A program made the translations under genes and the position numbers. From assembly GCA_031265005.1 (NCBI GenBank), contig JAISDD010000212.1, positions 1 to 11,327 of the forward strand: a DNA stretch of 11,327 nucleotides, written 5' to 3'. Below are positions 2,969 to 11,327 of this stretch, in pieces (within the stretch, counting starts at the first letter, position 1; every line of letters starts with the position of its first letter). The DNA comes from Syntrophomonadaceae bacterium. GTDB taxonomy: Bacteria; Bacillota; Syntrophomonadia; Syntrophomonadales; Syntrophomonadaceae. The notes below the pieces were generated by a model, which saw only the letters and a list, made by a program, of their open reading frames with translations, did not search any database and was not told where the DNA came from.

Positions 2969-3355
2969 TTATTCTCCTTTATTTGCTTTTTCTTCTTTTG
3001 TTTTGAAAAAGTCCTGTCTTTGTTGATAGTAGCCTATAGCGAACATCCCTTGTTCCGCTAAAGGCAAATGCGCCGGATAACCTGTTTTATTATCAAGTCT
3101 GCTATGTATTTCGCCTATTAGTTTGCCGAAATAAATTTCTCTTCCCGGTTTTTCTTTGCCAAGTTTGCTGAGATGATGCTGATGTAATCTCATTAAGTTG
3201 GCAAAAACCGTAACCGGTGTGCTTGACGCCGAACCATAATAACGGATTATAGTTGAATTTGTGCTTCCATGCGCTTCTTCCTGCAGTTTCTCAAGCGCGG
3301 CAAAAAGCCTGCCAAGCACATAGCCTTGATTTGCATTTTCTATGTCTAAACTCAC
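2969..3355 (-). CDS. cas11: Cas11c small Cascade subunit, translated from an internal GTG within cas8c
   Basis: Experimental work on other type I-C systems established that the small subunit Cas11c is made from an internal start in the 3' part of cas8c. The sequence here fits that closely. An AAGGAGG Shine-Dalgarno sequence (3364-3370) lies 8 bases before an in-frame GTG (3353-3355), corresponding to Val442 of Cas8c. The product would be 128 residues, beginning [19 protein letters not shown] and sharing the Cas8c stop. It is predicted to be mostly helical. Its role would be to bind along the Cas7 backbone and stabilise the displaced DNA strand. The codons encoding K437-E438-G439 supply the SD. 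Expression is inferred from sequence only. Confidence 0.8.
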
Positions 3356-4678
3356 TTTTATTCCCTCCTTTTCATTCCTGTTTAAATATGCCTTTATTAA
3401 AGCCGCTCTGGGATAATTTATTTTTTGTTCCGCTTTTATGCGGATGATTAAAGCCTGCAATAAAGTATTAGGATAAGGCAAGCCGCGTAAAACGGACATC
3501 ATAAAATCTCCGGCCAGATGCGGGGCTATGTTTTCGGACTTGCCAAAAGCGGCAGTTGAAAGCAGAAGTTTGAATAAAGGCAAAAATTCATTTTCAAACG
3601 CGGGCCTATCTACTTTTAAATCTTCAAAGTACCGTGCTATATTTGTAGACATTCCCGCTACTGTGTCTTTGATGAAAAATCTTACGGATATTCTTGCCTT
3701 ATTTGGTGATAACCCTAAAACATAAAATTTTTTATCATCGCTGGCAGGAACTCCTGTTCCACTTTCTACGGATTTAAATAAGGCCCTTACGGCATTTATT
3801 CCCACATCCGGATTATCTTTAGGCGCTATACTGAAAAGAGAGGCGAAATTACTCTCCAGTTTGTCCGGTTTGCTCGCCCAGAAAACCATTGTCGCGTCAC
3901 CGGCTAACATTCTTTGTGCTGAATCCTTTGCCAGTAAAGAATTTAACGCGGTAGTATATGCAAACATTCCTCTTTCTCCGCAAGGCGCATTATGTCCCTG
4001 CTCCTTCCCGTAAGAATCATAACCGCTGTTTATCTGAAATGAAACTATATTGGCCCCGGTAGCGTTGAAACCTTTTATATTATTATGAATAGGGACTATG
4101 GTGTCTCTCTCGCCGGTTATAAGACAAACAGATTTTTCACCTTCGTCTGAATTAGCCAAATCGCCTACTGTACGCATTATATTTGGCGTTTTAGAAATTA
4201 TATCGTCTTCGCCGGCAAGCTTAAAGGTAATATACGCTTTTTTATCTTCTTTTAATTCTTTGAATATTTCCACATTGCTTTTATTCAACAGTTCTTCTTT
4301 ATCCGTATTCTTTAGAAATAATTTCAAAGCGTTTAAGCCCTTGTCATCAATATCGCCTAAAGAATTAATTTTTTCAATAAATGCGCCATGCATTTTTGAG
4401 ATTCTTTCTTTATCGCTTTTTATTTTTATTCCTAAGGCATATTCAGGGTTATCCCATAAGAGATTGGCGGCTACTCCGCTTGCTCTTTTTACAGATTTTG
4501 GAAGTAAGAACAGCTTGGCCCTTTTTTCTTTTCCCGTTCCTTCATAAGTAGATTCTAAATTTACTACATTGCCATTTTTATCCAGAACTACGATATACGG
4601 AATCTCTTTTTCTTCAAAACCCTGTCGCGGCAGATCCTCTTTTCTGTCGTAATATTCTTTTAATGCCTGTAAAATCAT
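2969..4678 (-). CDS. cas8c: Type I-C Cascade large subunit Cas8c (Csd1)
   Basis: Cas8c recognises the PAM and begins unwinding of target DNA in the type I-C complex. The 569-residue protein has family-typical length and motifs: [12 protein letters not shown] at the start, a [21 protein letters not shown] segment (63-83), LITGE (186-190), [17 protein letters not shown] (233-249), [11 protein letters not shown] (262-272), [20 protein letters not shown] (316-335), [14 protein letters not shown] (397-410) and [13 protein letters not shown] (480-492). The region from residue 442 onward is the helical part also expressed as Cas11c. The ATG overlaps the cas5c stop by four bases (ATGA) and is preceded by AAGGAGGT at a good distance. 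The gene is intact. Confidence 0.96.
3364..3370 (-). promoter_or_regulatory. Internal Shine-Dalgarno site for cas11c
   Basis: The minus strand reads AAGGAGG, followed by eight A-rich bases and GTG. This is an essentially consensus ribosome binding site in the middle of the cas8c reading frame, where none is needed for Cas8c itself. It is at least as strong as the sites in front of the annotated genes of the operon. Confidence 0.8.
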
Positions 4679-5388
4679 CTTAAAACCTCCTTATCGTCCC
4701 AAGCCGGAATATTCAGTACTCCATTTTCTAGCTTCGCGCGAAACCATAACGGTTTAGGGCATTTCAAATCGGCAAAGTCTATATCATAAAGCATAATCCC
4801 CAAATCTCTGGTTTCATTAATTGCGGGATTTATCTTTAATTCATTTTGTAATTCTTCATTTGCTATAAGTTTGAAATTTGCCGAAAATTCCCTGCAACCC
4901 AAATACGGCTGGTTGAAACATTGTCCTTTTTTTGCGCGTCTTTCAAACATCGCAGCGTATTTTTCTTCTTTTTCATCATCTTCTATAGAAGCTTTTTTAA
5001 TATTATCAATAGTATGCCCGTACAGGACATTGCGGCTGTTTAGTCTTTTTGCAGGTGGAATAAAATCAAATTCGGCGTGAATTCTGTATCTGACGTCTTT
5101 AAGAAAGAGGGCTGCGCGCTGCTGTCTGTTATCCTCGGCATAAATGCAGGGTTTACCGTCAGAAGCTACCGCGCTTACCTCATTGCGTCTTACTGAAATC
5201 CATTTTATAGTATTTAAAACTTCTATTTTTTTAATATTCCAAACTATGGCCGGTTTCCAAAAAATGGCTTCAAATATCGCGCGCGCGGCCGACGGCGTTA
5301 TAATTTCATAACTGAGCCTTTCAACCTTCATTTCGGGGCGAGTGAAGCATGCAAAATCACCCCAGACTTCTAAACAAAAACCTCTCAT
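4675..5388 (-). CDS. cas5c: Type I-C Cas5c (Cas5d), presumed pre-crRNA endoribonuclease and Cascade subunit
   Basis: In type I-C systems Cas5c replaces Cas6: it cuts the repeat RNA and caps the 5' handle of the crRNA. The 237-residue protein shows LEVWGDFACFTRPEMKVE (6-23), SYEIITPSAARAIFEAIFWKP (26-46), ISVRRNEV (64-71), RQQRAALFLKDVRYRI (88-103) and a MFERRAKKGQCFNQPYLGCREF block (147-168). By my recollection of Bacillus halodurans Cas5d (Tyr46, Lys116, His117), the matching positions here are F43, K143 and Y144, so two of three presumed catalytic residues differ. The gene starts ten bases after cas3; TAGGAGGG at the cas3 stop serves as the SD. It overlaps cas8c by four bases. Confidence 0.94.
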   Translation of the reverse strand: MRGFCLEVWGDFACFTRPEMKVERLSYEIITPSAARAIFEAIFWKPAIVWNIKKIEVLNTIKWISVRRNEVSAVASDGKPCIYAEDNRQQRAALFLKDVRYRIHAEFDFIPPAKRLNSRNVLYGHTIDNIKKASIEDDEKEEKYAAMFERRAKKGQCFNQPYLGCREFSANFKLIANEELQNELKINPAINETRDLGIMLYDIDFADLKCPKPLWFRAKLENGVLNIPAWDDKEVLR

Positions 5389-5398
5389 TATATCCCTC

Positions 5399-7567
5399 CT
5401 ATATGATACCTATGTCTATCCCGTAGTTTTCCGCAAATACATTAAGCCCGCAGTCTTCGCCGTAAAAACCTTTTACGGATTGAACAAAAATTCCATTTGG
5501 CGTTTCTTCAATGAGCCCGGCCGCTTCCAATTCCTTAAATTTATTTTCGGGAAGGTTGACGGTATATCTCTGTAACTTTCTCATCAAGTTTCTGCTGATA
5601 CTGCCGTACCGCAAATGATTTATCAACTCAATACTTTTATTATACTCTACTATAACCGGTTTAGCGCAATTATTATCAATAATACTAAATTCTTCCGCAT
5701 AAGTTGCAAATTGAAATTTCCCTTCTTGCGCGTCTTTTACTAACATTTCCTTAAATTCTTTATCGCCGGTGTAATTTGCCCTTTTTATGAGACTACGGAA
5801 AAATTTTCTTGCTGTCTCAACATTGTCAATTTCAAAATTATCGGATGAAATTATTTCTCTGGCGGCGTCTTCACTTTTTCGCATCAGCCCAGCGGGGGAA
5901 AGCTTTGGAGGATTAAATATAAATACCTTGCCCTTTTCCATTTTCCCTTCTCTGTTGCAGCGGCCTGCGGTTTGGATAATAGACGTCAGGCCGGCAAACG
6001 CGCGAAAAACAACCGGGAAATCAATATCAACCCCTGCTTCTATCAGCTGTGTGCTGATTACCCGAATCTCTTCCCCGCGTTTAAGTTTTTCTTTAATGAG
6101 TTCAATTTTTTTGCTTCTGTGTTCTGCGCACATGAGCGCGGATAAATGGATTGTCCCGAAAGGCATAAGTTTATAAAGTTCATAACAGTCCCGCCTTGTA
6201 TTTACGACGCATAAAACCTGTTTATATCGTTCCAATTTTTCCGCAACGTTTTCCCACGTTTCTTTTTTGGCGTCTGCTTGGGGGAAATGATAATTTACTC
6301 TTTTAAGTTTTTCATAAAGACACATTGAAGCGGGAACTATTTTTGTAATATTTTCTATTTTCTCAAAGTAAGGCTGGGTTGCGGTAGAAAATACGATGGA
6401 ACATTTATAATTGTTTATAAGTTGAGTCAAAATTTCTTCAACGGGGTAAAGGAGCTCCGGCGGCAGCATTTGGGCTTCGTCCAGAATAATTATGCTGTTT
6501 GCAATATTATGTAATTTTCTGCACTTACTTGGCTTGTTAGCGTAAAGACTTTCAAAAAACTGAACGTTTGTTGTAACTATTATCGGTGCGTCCCAATTCT
6601 CGCATGCAAGGCGGGATTTTTCAGTTTCTTTTTCCGGGTCTATATTGCTGTGGTGCTCAATAACATTATCCTCGCCTAAAATACTTTTTAGGATTTTAGC
6701 GGTTTGCTCTATAATTGACGTATAGGGGATAACATAGATTATCCTTGTTTTTTTGTATTTTAACGCGTGTTTGAAGGCAAAAGCCAGCGAAGATAAAGTT
6801 TTCCCTCCGCCGGTGGGCACAGTAATCTCAAAAAATCCAGACTTTGTATCCGCGGCGTGTTTACATGCCTCAAGTATTTCTAAACGAATTTTATTTATAT
6901 TTGTCTGTTTAGCTGATTTTGTAAAATCGCCCAAGTATTTTAAAAATATGTCTGAAAGAACCGGGATGGATAAGAAAAGTCCCCTTTCCTTATCGCCTGA
7001 CATATGTTGCTCCGTGTCAAGAAAATCCGCGTCAACAAGGCACGAAAACAGCATTCTTATCCACAGGTGAAAATCTTCCTCTGTCTTTATAAAAGGAGGA
7101 GGGATAAAATTCTTCAAAAGGTTAGAAAGCTCTATAGCAAATGGTTTTAGTTCTTCATAATATTGCCTATCTTCATTAAGCCTTTGCGAAAGCGCCTTAG
7201 GTTTAGTTTTTCCGGGATACCAGTCAGCCAGCCCGGCATGATGCCCGGCAATGCAATATGCCATAATTTTACCGGCTTCTTTATATCGCTCAACTGAGTA
7301 AACCGCGCCTGCGCTTGAATGATTAGTTTTAGGAACGTAAGCCCCATCTTCATCTGAATCCACATTTGAAACTTTTTTTAAATACTCCTGAAAAGCATCG
7401 CTTGCCTTGCCTAAGTCATGTAAAAGACCGATGTTATAAGCCCACCCTGCAGAGTTAAACGATTCCGCAAAACTTTCCGCCATGCTTGCCGTCATTTGCA
7501 AATGGTCTTCCAATAATTGCCATTGCCCTGATTTGTTCGCAGAGTGCGCAAATATATCTTTCTGCAT
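5399..7567 (-). CDS. cas3: CRISPR-associated nuclease-helicase Cas3 (type I-C, HD domain N-terminal)
   Basis: Cas3 is recruited by target-bound Cascade and degrades the DNA. The 722-residue protein has an N-terminal HD nuclease: H22, H50-D51 in LLHDLGKASDAF, H83 in NHSSAGAVY, H109-H110 in CIAGHHAGLADW and D179 in SCLVDADF. The superfamily 2 helicase follows: Walker A PTGGGKT (251-257), DEAQ box (363-366) in IIILDEAQML, motif III STAT (394-397), motif V ISTQLIEAGVDIDF (504-517) and motif VI QTAGRCNRE (532-540). A C-terminal domain follows to residue 722. All key residues are present and the gene is unbroken. It is the first gene of the operon. The SD before the ATG at 7567 is weak (TTGAGA), unlike the downstream genes. 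Confidence 0.97.
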   Translation of the reverse strand: MQKDIFAHSANKSGQWQLLEDHLQMTASMAESFAESFNSAGWAYNIGLLHDLGKASDAFQEYLKKVSNVDSDEDGAYVPKTNHSSAGAVYSVERYKEAGKIMAYCIAGHHAGLADWYPGKTKPKALSQRLNEDRQYYEELKPFAIELSNLLKNFIPPPFIKTEEDFHLWIRMLFSCLVDADFLDTEQHMSGDKERGLFLSIPVLSDIFLKYLGDFTKSAKQTNINKIRLEILEACKHAADTKSGFFEITVPTGGGKTLSSLAFAFKHALKYKKTRIIYVIPYTSIIEQTAKILKSILGEDNVIEHHSNIDPEKETEKSRLACENWDAPIIVTTNVQFFESLYANKPSKCRKLHNIANSIIILDEAQMLPPELLYPVEEILTQLINNYKCSIVFSTATQPYFEKIENITKIVPASMCLYEKLKRVNYHFPQADAKKETWENVAEKLERYKQVLCVVNTRRDCYELYKLMPFGTIHLSALMCAEHRSKKIELIKEKLKRGEEIRVISTQLIEAGVDIDFPVVFRAFAGLTSIIQTAGRCNREGKMEKGKVFIFNPPKLSPAGLMRKSEDAAREIISSDNFEIDNVETARKFFRSLIKRANYTGDKEFKEMLVKDAQEGKFQFATYAEEFSIIDNNCAKPVIVEYNKSIELINHLRYGSISRNLMRKLQRYTVNLPENKFKELEAAGLIEETPNGIFVQSVKGFYGEDCGLNVFAENYGIDIGII

Positions 7568-7588
7568 TTTTATCTCAACTTGTTTGTG

Positions 7589-7669
7589 ATGCTTGTTAGT
7601 CTAATATTTGAATTATACATAATTTTTTATATATAAGATAATTATAGAATGTGTTACACTATATTAGAC
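7589..7669. repeat. 9-bp inverted repeat flanking the cas promoter
   Basis: GTCTAATAT at 7589-7597 is exactly inverted as ATATTAGAC at 7661-7669, with 63 bases between the arms. The match continues with one single-base gap (GTTAGTCTAATAT against GTTGTCTAATAT). The right arm overlaps the proposed -35 and the left arm lies in the untranslated leader of cas3. The arrangement could be two operator half-regions for a repressor acting on the cas operon, or coincidence in AT-rich DNA. No regulator gene is present in the window. Confidence 0.35.
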
Positions 7670-7671
7670 AA
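7641..7671 (-). promoter_or_regulatory. Candidate sigma-70-type promoter of the cas operon
   Basis: On the minus strand a perfect -10 hexamer TATAAT (7641-7646) lies 19 bases downstream of TTGTCT (7666-7671), which matches the -35 consensus at four of six positions. The spacer is longer than the optimal 17. A second TATAAT occurs at 7612-7617, closer to cas3 but without a clear -35. The transcript would have a 5' leader of roughly 70 bases before the cas3 ATG. In such AT-rich DNA, TATAAT arises easily by chance. Confidence 0.4.
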
Positions 7672-7905
7672 CTTAATTGGTAGCTTGTACTACTCCGAAT
7701 TGAAATAGAAAAACTAATTTTATTATAAATAATTAGATATAAAAAGCAACCTCGTCTATGACTATCAAAAAAATCATAGAGATACTTTTAACGGTATTAT
7801 TATGGTAATACTTAAGTTTGTTTATTTTTTTGGTAAATGTATAAATAGATTAGAAAATTTAGAGAAGCAGATGTAAAAGTTAAATAATGTCGCGGAGTCC
7901 GTTAA

Positions 7906-7942
7906 AACCATCAGTCTTTCCTTCTTTTACTTTTTGATGGTT
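7906..7942 (-). terminator. Weak terminator-like hairpin downstream of the lipoprotein cassette
   Basis: AACCATCA (7906-7913) and TGATGGTT (7935-7942) form a perfect 8-bp stem with a 21-base loop. An outer 5-bp stem, CGGAG (7893-7897) with CTCCG (7944-7948), may extend it. On the minus strand the hairpin ends in TTTT, so it could stop transcripts from the DUF4823-like gene before they run into cas3. The long loop and short T run make it a weak terminator. Confidence 0.35.
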
Positions 7943-7956
7943 CCTCCGATATTTTG

Positions 7957-7988
7957 GGTCAAGGGGACAATCCACCGTCCCCTTGACC
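7957..7988. repeat. REP-like perfect 12-bp palindromic hairpin
   Basis: GGTCAAGGGGAC (7957-7968) and GTCCCCTTGACC (7977-7988) are exact inverted copies around an 8-base loop. There is no T run on either side, so it is not a standard intrinsic terminator. Palindromes of the GGGGAC...GTCCCC type with a short loop occur, from memory, as dispersed REP-like elements in several bacterial groups, sometimes near REP-associated (RAYT/Y1) transposases. None is encoded here, and repetition elsewhere in the genome cannot be judged from one window. Confidence 0.5.
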
Positions 7989-8037
7989 ACAAACACGCGG
8001 CTAAAATCAGCACATCACGCCCGGCTTAACAGGGTTT

Positions 8038-8616
8038 TTATTTTATATTTTTAAACCATGTATCAAGCGAATCGCTGAAACGCCCTTTGGGCCCCATAGT
8101 TCCGATGGGGATAATATTCAACAGGATAGTCGGGCAGCCGGCGTTTTGCATGCGTTGTTTGTTGAGCAGCTCCCCGGTTTGCACATCATAAATCTGAACG
8201 GATATATCTATGGAATCTCTCTTCGTTGAGCCATTTGCGCCGGTGCAGGCCATATAGAATTCGTCATTCCATTCCTCTATATCCAAGGTAATCAAATATT
8301 TATCGCCGCGCGCCTTAGCTTCTTCCAATCCTTGTGCGATCGGAAAATTCTGCTCGCTTCTGACAAGACTTCCGAATTTTTTGTGGAATTTATTAAAAAA
8401 TACGCCGGCGGCCTCCTTAGCGCTTCCCTTGTTTTCAGCACGCTCTCCTTTGAAAAAGGTTATTTCATGCCCGTCTTTAGGCTGAATCATGTAAAAACTT
8501 GAACCGGTATCAATCCTTTTATCCTGCTCAAATTTCCCTATTTTCTTTGAAGGGATGACCGAATGGCATCCACCTAACAATAATGAACCCGCTAATATCA
8601 ATGCTGTTTTTTTCAT
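8038..8616 (-). CDS. Putative lipoprotein, DUF4823-like
   Basis: This is a 192-residue envelope lipoprotein of unknown function. The signal peptide MKKTALILAGSLLLGGC ends in an LGGC lipobox, with C17 as the lipidation site. The mature part contains SSFYMIQPKDGHE, a helix EAAGVFFNKFHKKFG, EEAKARGDKYLITLDIEEWND and IDISVQIYDVQTGELLNKQ. That order and spacing resemble, from memory, the DUF4823 family of small lipoproteins. The ATG at 8616 was chosen because it opens the signal peptide and has AAGGAG at good spacing. A longer reading from 8730 would add 38 residues, hide the signal peptide and overlap the upstream gene. It lies 64 bases after the preceding lipoprotein gene and is probably co-transcribed. 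Confidence 0.85.
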   Translation of the reverse strand: MKKTALILAGSLLLGGCHSVIPSKKIGKFEQDKRIDTGSSFYMIQPKDGHEITFFKGERAENKGSAKEAAGVFFNKFHKKFGSLVRSEQNFPIAQGLEEAKARGDKYLITLDIEEWNDEFYMACTGANGSTKRDSIDISVQIYDVQTGELLNKQRMQNAGCPTILLNIIPIGTMGPKGRFSDSLDTWFKNIK

Positions 8617-8680
8617 TTGTATTTCTCCTTGTTGAAAAGTCTGCTTCTCAAAAATTGTGAGAAGGGAACATATCTTATAA

Positions 8681-9199
8681 CTATTTCTTATCCGCTTTTG
8701 TGCCGAGTATAAAAATATGCTCCGCGTCATTAAATTTAAAAGCGGTTCTGTTATCTGCGGGTATGGGGATAATAGTTACGACCGGTAAAGATAAATCCTT
8801 CTCTTCCTCCACGCGGAAAGCCAAATAATAAGGCTTGTTATTCTCTTTATCCCAGCCGTTTCTCCGTAAATAATGTTTATTTTCGCTTAATATATAATCC
8901 CCGCCGCCAATGGACACTTGGTAAGAATCCATAAAATAATACCCCGGGTCTAACTTTTCCTCATAAGTATATGCTTTGGGGAAAGAGGAATTCATCAACA
9001 ATTTGGCTTTGGTAACGCCTATCGCAAACGCGGAAGAAGTTGTGCCGTCGTCATTCAATTTCTTCCATAAAGTCAGCGCGGCTATTCCGTTTTCAGACTG
9101 GAAATTAAAACCGACTTTAGACGGATTGGCGGATTTATTGCCGACAGTCGCGCAAGCCGCAAGGCATAATACTAAACACAACCATAATATTTTTTTCAT
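8681..9199 (-). CDS. Putative lipoprotein of unknown function
   Basis: I do not recognise this 172-residue protein. It has a clear lipoprotein signal, MKKILWLCLVLCLAAC, with an LAAC lipobox and lipidation at C16. The mature sequence looks beta-rich: KVGFNFQSENGIAALTLWKK, SAFAIGVTKAKLLM, LDPGYYFMDSYQVSIGGGDY, KPYYLAFRVEEEK and LPVVTIIPIP. The LDPGYYFMDSYQV segment resembles the cuff of small periplasmic domains in which a gene product 'pays' an extended strand, but I cannot assign a family. The start has an excellent AAGGAG site five bases from the ATG. It lies 47 bases after the beta-barrel gene and 64 bases before the DUF4823-like gene, and may act with them at the outer membrane. Confidence 0.85.
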   Translation of the reverse strand: MKKILWLCLVLCLAACATVGNKSANPSKVGFNFQSENGIAALTLWKKLNDDGTTSSAFAIGVTKAKLLMNSSFPKAYTYEEKLDPGYYFMDSYQVSIGGGDYILSENKHYLRRNGWDKENNKPYYLAFRVEEEKDLSLPVVTIIPIPADNRTAFKFNDAEHIFILGTKADKK

Positions 9200-9246
9200 A
9201 TTTTCTCCTTAGACAACTTTTATTTTATATTGGCAACGCGGCCAAA

Positions 9247-9957
9247 TCAGCTGTTTGCCGCGGTATAGCCCTGCGGCTGCTTTCTGCTCTCAATTTCAAA
9301 ATAATATCTGAACTGCACGCCCCAGCTCAGGCCGTTAAGGTCATCCACAATATCTTTGCTGAATATCTTAGGGTAGCCGTGCCCGTCAAGTTTGGCATTT
9401 TTTGAATATTTGAAATCCACCCCGAGGCCGATTGCTCGGCTGACGCGCACTTCCGCGCCGAAAACCAGGTGCGGGAATATTTTATTGTCCTTATATTTTT
9501 GAGGGCCGTCTTTAAAAGTGGAAAACGCCCAGCTTAACCCGCCGCCGCCGTAAATATTGAAAAATTCAAAAATATTCAGTTTGCCGTAAACGCTCAGCGG
9601 GAAAATATTCTGTTCCATTTTTAAATTATAGCGCCCTGCCAGCGATGACGGGGGACGTATCCTAAAACTAAGCTCGTCTTTGCCCACGGTTTCGTAGCCG
9701 AGCTTGCCGCCAAGCGCAAACCTTTCGTTGAAGTTGTGCTCAAAAAATATGTCCGCGCCTAAGAACATACTTGATTCAGACAGAGAACTTGTGGAAGAGA
9801 TAGAAGATATATTGTTTTTAACCGCGTCAAGATTGGTAGTTTTTGCGGCTTTGCCTAATTTAAGCCCCACGCCTACTTCCTTGACGCCGGCGGCAAAAGC
9901 GGCAGAGGCAGATACATATAAAACTAAAACGCACACAACAGATATTAATGTTCTCAT
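9247..9957 (-). CDS. Putative outer-membrane beta-barrel protein
   Basis: This 236-residue protein has a Sec signal peptide with likely cleavage after A22 (AFA). The mature part has alternating hydrophobic and aromatic strands typical of a small beta-barrel: GVGLKLGKA, SMFLGADIFFEHNF, RFALGGKLGYETVG, FPLSVYGKLNIF, FNIYGGGGLSWAFS, FPHLVFGAEVRVS, IGLGVDFKYSKNA and LSWGVQFRYYFEIE. A Ser-rich linker (ISSISSTSSLSESS) lies near residues 50-63. After the last strand (RYYF) there is a short hydrophilic tail, so the terminal aromatic residue common in porins is missing. GGAGAT before the ATG is a good SD. It is the first gene of the envelope cassette; its substrate or partner is unknown. Confidence 0.82.
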   Translation of the reverse strand: MRTLISVVCVLVLYVSASAAFAAGVKEVGVGLKLGKAAKTTNLDAVKNNISSISSTSSLSESSMFLGADIFFEHNFNERFALGGKLGYETVGKDELSFRIRPPSSLAGRYNLKMEQNIFPLSVYGKLNIFEFFNIYGGGGLSWAFSTFKDGPQKYKDNKIFPHLVFGAEVRVSRAIGLGVDFKYSKNAKLDGHGYPKIFSKDIVDDLNGLSWGVQFRYYFEIESRKQPQGYTAANS

Positions 9958-10182
9958 TTTTTATCTCCATTTGATAAACCATCTAATTTATTTGACGACG
10001 CTTCCGGATTGAAAGGATTTTTCTTTGAATATATCTATTCTTTATTATTTGCTTCGCACCTCCCCCTCCCTATAACCACTGCTATTTTTCAGGAAGAGCT
10101 ACAGGTTAGTTTTTATCATAGCCAAACTGGCAATAACAAGAGAAAATCCTTGGGTTCTAAAGGCTAAATAGACCCCAAAAAA

Positions 10183-10210
10183 GCCATTCAAAGAAAAATT
10201 CTTGAACGGC
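10183..10210 (-). terminator. Intrinsic terminator-type hairpin
   Basis: On the minus strand GCCGTTCAA and TTGAATGGC form a 9-bp stem (one G-U pair) around a 10-base loop, followed by TTTTTT. On the plus strand the same DNA has a single A-C mismatch and is followed by TTTTT. It should work mainly for minus-strand transcripts coming from the MFS gene, perhaps as the second of two tandem terminators. Confidence 0.6.
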
Positions 10211-10266
10211 TTTTTATTTCGCGGAAAATCTCCAAAAACGGCATTTTCAGTTTTGGGCGCATAAAA

Positions 10267-10297
10267 AATCTCCGACCATAAAACAGTATCGGAGATT
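10267..10297 (-). terminator. Intrinsic terminator downstream of the MFS gene
   Basis: AATCTCCGA (10267-10275) and TCGGAGATT (10289-10297) form a perfect 9-bp stem with a 13-base loop. On the minus strand the stem runs straight into a TTTTTT tract. This suits termination of the MFS transcript, about 260 bases after its stop codon, and would insulate the envelope cassette. Confidence 0.65.
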
Positions 10298-10368
10298 GAT
10301 AATTGATTTACACTAAAATTCGGAGTGTGTAGTTTTGATAGCAATCCTCTCTGTTTAAATTCTACCAA

Positions 10369-10403
10369 AAATTCCCTAATAACAGGGAATTTACAGGGAA
10401 ATT
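10369..10403. repeat. Palindrome plus direct repeat built on AGGGAA
   Basis: AAATTCCCT (10369-10377) and AGGGAATTT (10384-10392) form a perfect 9-bp inverted repeat with a 6-base loop. The right arm is then repeated directly: ACAGGGAATTT (10382-10392) and ACAGGGAAATT (10393-10403). Further copies of the core occur as TTCCCT at 10467-10472 and AGGGA at 10505-10509. The cluster may be an insertion-sequence end or remnant, a dispersed repeat or a binding region; the sequence does not decide. Confidence 0.45.
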
Positions 10404-10559
10404 ATGCATTTTTGAATCCTTTATGCTGCCTTTTTTAAGTAACCTCCCCTATACAACCATAAAACATTCCCTATGAAAATAACAGCAAATTAAATATTTT
10501 TATCAGGGATTTTTTTGGATAAAACATATATCCGACTGCCCTTGATTAATTGCCCGCAT

Positions 10560-11327
10560 TTAAGATTTAACGATACCGTTTTCTTCGTCCGTAAAATCAT
10601 TCCTCATACGGTAAAAACCTAAAGCCGTAAGAAAACAGATTAAACCTATAATCAACCACGGCAGGGCCGGCGAAACGGGGCTTAAATATTCCATAAATAC
10701 GCCCGCACTTACCATTCCTAAGCCGGCACCGGCTTGGATAGCCATTGCTTGCATACCTAAAAATCTTCCTCTATTTTTTCCCGGTGCGATATTTGCTATC
10801 AATGAATTCTGCCCCGGCGATACCGCTGTTTGACCTATGGAAGATAAAACAATTGCAACTACGGCTGTAACAAAACTTTGCGCGCGACCGAGTATAATAT
10901 AGCCTAATCCGTAGAGAACAGAGCCTGCTACAAGAGACGTGGTGAGTTTGTGCCTGTTCATTATTTTTGCAGCGTGATATTGTAAAAGCACTACTACTAA
11001 ACCGTCCAACGCAAACAGCCAGCCTATCTGATATTGTGCAAACCCCATATATTTTATACCGTGCAAAGAAAAGCCGGTAATCAGCTGGGCCGATACAAAA
11101 GCTATCAGAAATACCAAAAAGCAGATTTTAGCAAATCTTGCCTCTTTAAGCGATATTAGCATATCTTTAAAAGAAACTTTTGCGCGGATTTCGGCCTCTC
11201 CCTCAGGTGTTGGAGGGATGTCCTGAATTTTTATCAGAACCAATAAAAGCGTCAACAAATAAAACATGCCGGTAATGGCAAACGCCAGTGCAAAAGAGTA
11301 TCCCGCCATAAACCCGCCTGTGGCCGC
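10560..11327 (-). CDS. MFS transporter, C-terminal part (5' end outside the window)
   Basis: The frame stays open to the window edge, so at least 255 residues of a larger major facilitator superfamily transporter are present. The visible part begins in a TGGFMAGYSFALAF segment that resembles the end of the family's motif C, at transmembrane segment 5. A charged central loop (IPPTPEGEAEIRAKVSFKDML) follows, then about six more hydrophobic segments: FAKICFLVFLIAFVSAQL, IGWLFALDGLVVVLLQY, SLVAGSVLYGLGYIILG, FVTAVVAIVLSSIGQTA, GAGLGMVSAGVF and LPWLIIGLICFLTALGF. This is the C-terminal half of a 12-segment drug or metabolite exporter of DHA1 type. The ATG at 11309 is internal, not the true start. 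Substrate cannot be assigned. Confidence 0.88.
   Translation of the reverse strand, partial: AATGGFMAGYSFALAFAITGMFYLLTLLLVLIKIQDIPPTPEGEAEIRAKVSFKDMLISLKEARFAKICFLVFLIAFVSAQLITGFSLHGIKYMGFAQYQIGWLFALDGLVVVLLQYHAAKIMNRHKLTTSLVAGSVLYGLGYIILGRAQSFVTAVVAIVLSSIGQTAVSPGQNSLIANIAPGKNRGRFLGMQAMAIQAGAGLGMVSAGVFMEYLSPVSPALPWLIIGLICFLTALGFYRMRNDFTDEENGIVKS

Follow-up and report, generated by a model that had tools for sequence, protein, structure and literature searches.

A cas11c gene very probably nested within cas8c of a type I-C operon, and tandem Cas11c domains in other Cas8c proteins

Does the cas8c gene of this type I-C operon encode one protein or two? The window, the whole stretch of DNA analysed here, is one complete contig of 11,327 bases from a MAG (G000; 1.63 Mb, 276 contigs, 77% complete) and carries on its minus strand an operon in which NCBIfam profiles identified cas3 (5399–7567, 722 aa, TIGR01587 and TIGR01596), cas5c (4675–5388, 237 aa, TIGR01876), cas8c, cas7c (Csd2; 2007–2966, 319 aa, TIGR02589), cas4 (1372–2007, 211 aa, TIGR00372), a type I-C cas1 (354–1388, 344 aa, TIGR03640) and cas2 (59–349, 96 aa, TIGR01573), the contig ending 58 bases past cas2. 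Repeat searches covering positions 1–1500 and 7500–11327 showed no CRISPR array. The cas8c gene (Csd1; 2969–4678, minus strand), which cas5c overlaps by 4 nt, encodes the 569-aa large subunit of type I-C Cascade (TIGR01863, 510.8 bits, E = 4.8e-153) and is annotated as a single protein where, to judge from the sequence, the organism very likely makes two. The second would be a 128-aa small subunit, Cas11c, from a gene at 2969–3355 on the same strand with the frame and stop of cas8c.

The initial annotation had proposed such a hidden gene from a ribosome binding site followed by an in-frame GTG, and the minus-strand sequence bears this out exactly, with the Shine-Dalgarno (SD) motif AAGGAGG at 3370–3364, an 8-nt spacer at 3363–3356 and the GTG at 3355–3353 opening the 128-aa product. 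This GTG is codon 442 of cas8c (4678 − 3355 = 1323 bases, or 441 codons, upstream), and the SD does lie, as had been stated, within K437-E438-G439, where the codons AAG GAG GGA are read. AAGGAGG occurs four times on the two strands of the window (3370, 4692 and 8418 on the minus strand, 7093 on the plus strand), the copy at 4692 being the ribosome binding site of cas8c itself. Calculated with a 16S 3' end sequence that we assumed, the anti-SD duplex of the internal motif reached -12.1 kcal/mol, compared with -12.9 for cas8c, -10.7 for cas5c, -8.7 for cas7c and -2.7 to -5.2 for cas3, cas4, cas1 and cas2, and it ranked first among the 21 in-frame internal starts of the gene. Predicted accessibility places the start region among the least folded stretches of cas8c, folding around GTG 442 amounting to -1.7 kcal/mol over 70 nt against a median of -10.75 for the gene (99.6th percentile).

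Single motifs are weak evidence, since by eye an AAGGAG at 4006–4001 (minus strand) likewise precedes an out-of-frame ATG (3990–3988) in the same gene by ten bases, and an in-frame GTG could in the same way follow a purine-rich stretch by chance. Duplexes as strong as -12.1 kcal/mol were found, however, at 0.13% of 3,044 other in-frame internal starts of cas8c genes, and the position recurs in distant genes, which makes coincidence extremely improbable. Both SD codons, AAG and GAG, are the rarer, G-ending synonyms in the window cas8c (Lys AAA 45 vs AAG 10; Glu GAA 35 vs GAG 7), and the observed SD energy was reached in 3.3% of 1,000 synonymous-codon shuffles of this gene alone. At that rate the locus taken alone is moderately unusual, and the comparison across many loci is decisive. 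The same 3.3% speaks for a reading in which the SD-like string simply follows from a conserved Cas8c motif (K-E-G/E/V before V/M-S/A-L), with no internal start at all.

For this comparison, a TIGR01863 profile search of 398 genomes of the phylum gave 103 with a match, and 120 loci were taken, namely 103 from the phylum genomes, two from genome contigs, 14 from plasmid records and the window, with L001, the window's own locus, left out. Four loci that did not span the region (L063, L104, L105 and L106) were dropped, giving 116; three N-terminal cas8c pieces (G127:C131, G082:C51 and G333:C46) had been left out of the sample. An ATG, GTG or TTG was present within 4 codons of the aligned column in 115 of the 116 loci and an SD-like duplex of -5 kcal/mol or lower in 112, related loci within these counts not being independent. 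The internal start ranked first among the in-frame internal starts of its own gene in 98 loci (17 of 115 did not rank first). In these counts each locus was scored at whichever start codon gave the strongest duplex up to 4 codons from the aligned column, a choice that favours low energies; twelve loci were scored two codons downstream, nine of which also have Met or Val at the aligned column. Across 45 clusters formed below 50% identity, the start was found in 44, the duplex of -5 kcal/mol or lower in 42 and the first rank in 38, compared with 1.7 first ranks expected by chance. Conservation of the SD and start in close relatives had been put forward as a check, and both are kept in the nearest relative found, an Endomicrobium MAG contig (L002, Cas8c 64.6% identical), which has AAGGAGG, an 8-nt spacer and GTG in the same position.

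Codon choice weighs against the protein motif as the source of the signal. Of the 45 loci with Val in the start column, 44 code it as GTG, compared with the 11.1 predicted by the Val codon usage of the individual genes; among cluster representatives all 15 do so, against a prediction of 3.6. Observed minus synonymous-shuffle energy was -4.56 kcal/mol at the site (n = 115) and +0.06 kcal/mol at the 3,044 other internal starts, which were scored singly. The site was stronger than its own synonymous mean in 113 of 115 loci, whilst locus by locus 29 of 115 reached the 5% level and 75 of 115 the 20% level. Although 70 of 115 single-copy loci do have a [KRQ]-E-[GEVD] triplet among the nine residues that precede the start column, as the motif reading would have it, the bias lies in the codons themselves and the triplet is missing from all 13 triple-copy proteins described below, so that we give this reading very little probability.

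Several loci depart from the common pattern. Two from Bacteroidota (L112 and L117; Parabacteroides and Phocaeicola), a phylum that makes weak use of SD motifs, have an ATG near the Cas11c column without an SD, and a Streptomyces locus (L116) has a weak SD at that column. In Deinococcus aetherius (L118), no start codon falls inside the 4-codon limit around the aligned column. One of the dropped loci (L106, G023:C24) is a 697-aa frame with weak similarity to Cas8c that includes the Cas11c region, and at G916:C1:1794520-1797583 the cas8c match falls into two pieces about 1.3 kb apart, the Cas11c part lying in a separate 189-aa frame.

The predicted product (calculated 14.5 kDa, pI 8.8) has solved relatives. 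Its best phmmer match among them was 8g9s_H (1.1e-27, residues 3–121 aligned), followed here by 7kha_K (4.2e-20, residues 2–123 of 128 aligned), and when the whole Cas8c was the query, residue 442 aligned on residue 1 of 7kha_K. An AlphaFold model of the 128 residues (pLDDT 86.9) comprises six helices and matched 16 PDB chains at E ≤ 0.001, all from type I-C Cascade entries, so the model as predicted has the helical-bundle Cas11 fold. In NCBIfam, the sole match of the product was the Cas8c model. By its in-frame location at the 3' end of cas8c, its homology, its fold and its internal SD with a homologous start, the product belongs with type I-C Cas11c.

The 8g9s structure, which we take to be the type I-C Cascade of Neisseria lactamica, provides the closest solved chain, albeit one diverged in sequence from the window product. 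An internal cas11 in the N. lactamica cas8 is mentioned in passages of PMC10865793. The closest parallel in gene organization is the type I-C system of Desulfovibrio (Nitratidesulfovibrio) vulgaris (7kha), which has in common with the window the gene layout, the domain, the homologous GTG start and an internal SD in cas8c. In strain RCH1, cas8c has a GTG at residue 489 of 612, homologous to GTG 442, with GGAGGTG upstream; the spacing differs, with 3 nt after GGAGGTG (5 from GGAGG) in D. vulgaris and 8 nt after AAGGAGG in the window, and the two Cas11c sequences are 40% identical in the fold comparison. Passages of PMC7684278 give the D. vulgaris small subunit as residues 489–612 of Cas8c and describe a 14 kDa subunit in its Cascade, with one Cas8c to two small subunits. 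In other subtypes, text in PMC11899642 describes Cas11b made from an internal start in cas8b of Haloferax and a type I-D case within cas10; as is predicted for the window, one gene gives two proteins by in-frame internal initiation there, although the proposed Haloferax SD is GGATG. The arrangement is already known for type I-C, and the window is a well-supported further example whose GTG start is common to D. vulgaris.

Initiation is not the only use to which an internal SD might be put, since such a motif could instead slow the ribosome at a domain boundary to aid co-translational folding, and the site does coincide with the beginning of the C-terminal domain. A pause would need no start codon, yet the GTG is kept as a codon, and a free subunit is made in D. 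vulgaris according to the passages of PMC7684278 cited above; pausing without initiation is thus highly unlikely. Taken together, the homology to solved chains, the D. vulgaris start, the conservation of SD and start and the predicted unfolded start region support the hidden Cas11c of the initial annotation, and we hold it very probable that GTG 442 is used and that a separate Cas11c is made from this internal start. Ribosomes would bind the internal AAGGAGG in the cas operon mRNA and restart in frame at GTG 442, so that the last 128 codons of cas8c would serve as a second gene, cas11c, whose product, a helical bundle of 14.5 kDa, would have the same sequence as the C-terminal domain of Cas8c. 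In type I-C Cascade, two free Cas11c copies, a number that we infer for the organism of the window, would adjoin that domain and give support to the R-loop's non-target strand.

The gene was also said to be routinely left out of annotation. Consistent with this, cas11c was absent from 12 of 12 annotated plasmid records (14 were fetched, two of them without any annotation), PLSDB gene tables being incomplete. Short homologues do exist in public protein sets (n = 162); among the 120 listed, 71 begin at the residue equivalent to GTG 442, and their source names are Csd1 or Cas8c, none Cas11. By eye, the longest contig exceeds 10 kb for seven of the 120 listed. Gene callers presumably choose the internal start where a short contig truncates the front of cas8c, an account outside which P0052 (125 aa, on a 162-kb contig) falls. 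Conservation of the internal start at codon level gives an easy way of checking a cas8c gene for Cas11c from sequence.

Some Cas8c proteins carry more than one Cas11c domain in a single chain. The cas8c at L048:6941-9673 (G244:C4) is a single 910-aa reading frame in which three Cas11c domains lie in tandem. The codons at its first domain read AAT GAA GGG GTA ATA AAT ATT ACG TTG, whilst a one-domain gene of the same family (L155, G415) reads AAT GAG GAG GAG ATA AGT ATG GCG TTA, indicating that in L048 the ATG has been replaced by ATT and the SD weakened. L048 keeps a TTG two codons further along, with a duplex of -6.2 kcal/mol, compared with -12.3 at the ATG of L155; no start codon stands within 5 codons of its second domain, and its third has an ATG and a GTG without an SD. 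A second genome (G1024) encodes two Cas11c domains at L151 (G1024:C86), where a strong SD and GTG are kept (-12.9 kcal/mol), which predicts a free two-domain product. Extra in-frame Cas11c domains showed up in the genome-search match tables for G244 and G1024 only, G244 being one of the 103 matched genomes and recurring in a search that matched 31 of 395 genomes, and G1024 coming from one that matched 61 of 391.

A search of public proteins for tandem copies returned 1,423 matches, of which 120 were listed, and domains were counted in 240 proteins. Among the matches listed, at least 13 proteins have three domains (P0121, P0122, P0123, P0125–P0132, P0139 and P0198) and one has two (P0168). In P0131, P0132, P0139 and P0198, the last of which is without the Cas8c front, the third copy matches in part; over the part searched, P0121 and L048 share 99% identity. 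Searching viral contigs and phage records with P0129 gave no DNA of a further triple-copy gene. Taken as a protein-level stand-in for the SD, and with related sequences not independent, the [KRQ]-E-[GEVD] triplet occurs within the nine residues ahead of the first domain in none of the 13 triple-copy proteins, compared with 90 of 106 single-domain public proteins and the 70 of 115 single-copy loci. In a tree of single domains (159 tips), the copies of P0121 group with L155 (support 0.955) and those of P0122 with L074 (0.824), the two copies of P0168 group together (0.998), as do the two of L151 (0.831), and P0125–P0129 group by copy number (0.976–0.986), whilst P0123 and the P0130–P0139 group take ambiguous positions. 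This grouping indicates more than one origin of the tandem copies, recent in some cases and old in others.

Three domains in one chain equal the Cas11c complement of D. vulgaris Cascade, which has one in Cas8c and two free. On balance we lean towards the view that type I-C systems set the Cas8c:Cas11c ratio in two ways, by internal initiation, as in the window and most of the relatives compared, or by covalent tandem copies, which reached three domains per chain in several lineages, and that the internal signal decays once triple copies are present, the DNA-level evidence for decay coming from one locus (L048) in which a TTG with a -6.2 kcal/mol duplex is left. We found no description of fused or tandem Cas11 in Cas8c in the open-licence PMC literature, as covered by titles, abstract starts and passages. 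Tandem-copy Cas8c is possibly a large and small subunit in a single chain, and lets the reason for having a free subunit be tested on natural variants.

The nearest Cas8c found being that of the Endomicrobium contig raises the matter of where the window's operon came from. The rpoB of G000 shares 84% identity with those of two relatives in the same GTDB family, and 48.5% with that of the Endomicrobium genome. Tetranucleotide composition of the window correlated with G000 at r = 0.853, within the 0.67–0.93 of 12 other G000 contigs, and with two Endomicrobium stretches at 0.678; it fits G000 better than Endomicrobium. Transfer of the operon or misbinning of the contig may lie behind the resemblance to the Endomicrobium Cas8c. 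Adjoining the operon, positions 8038–9957 (minus strand) hold three frames whose products look, by eye, like two lipoproteins and an outer-membrane barrel.
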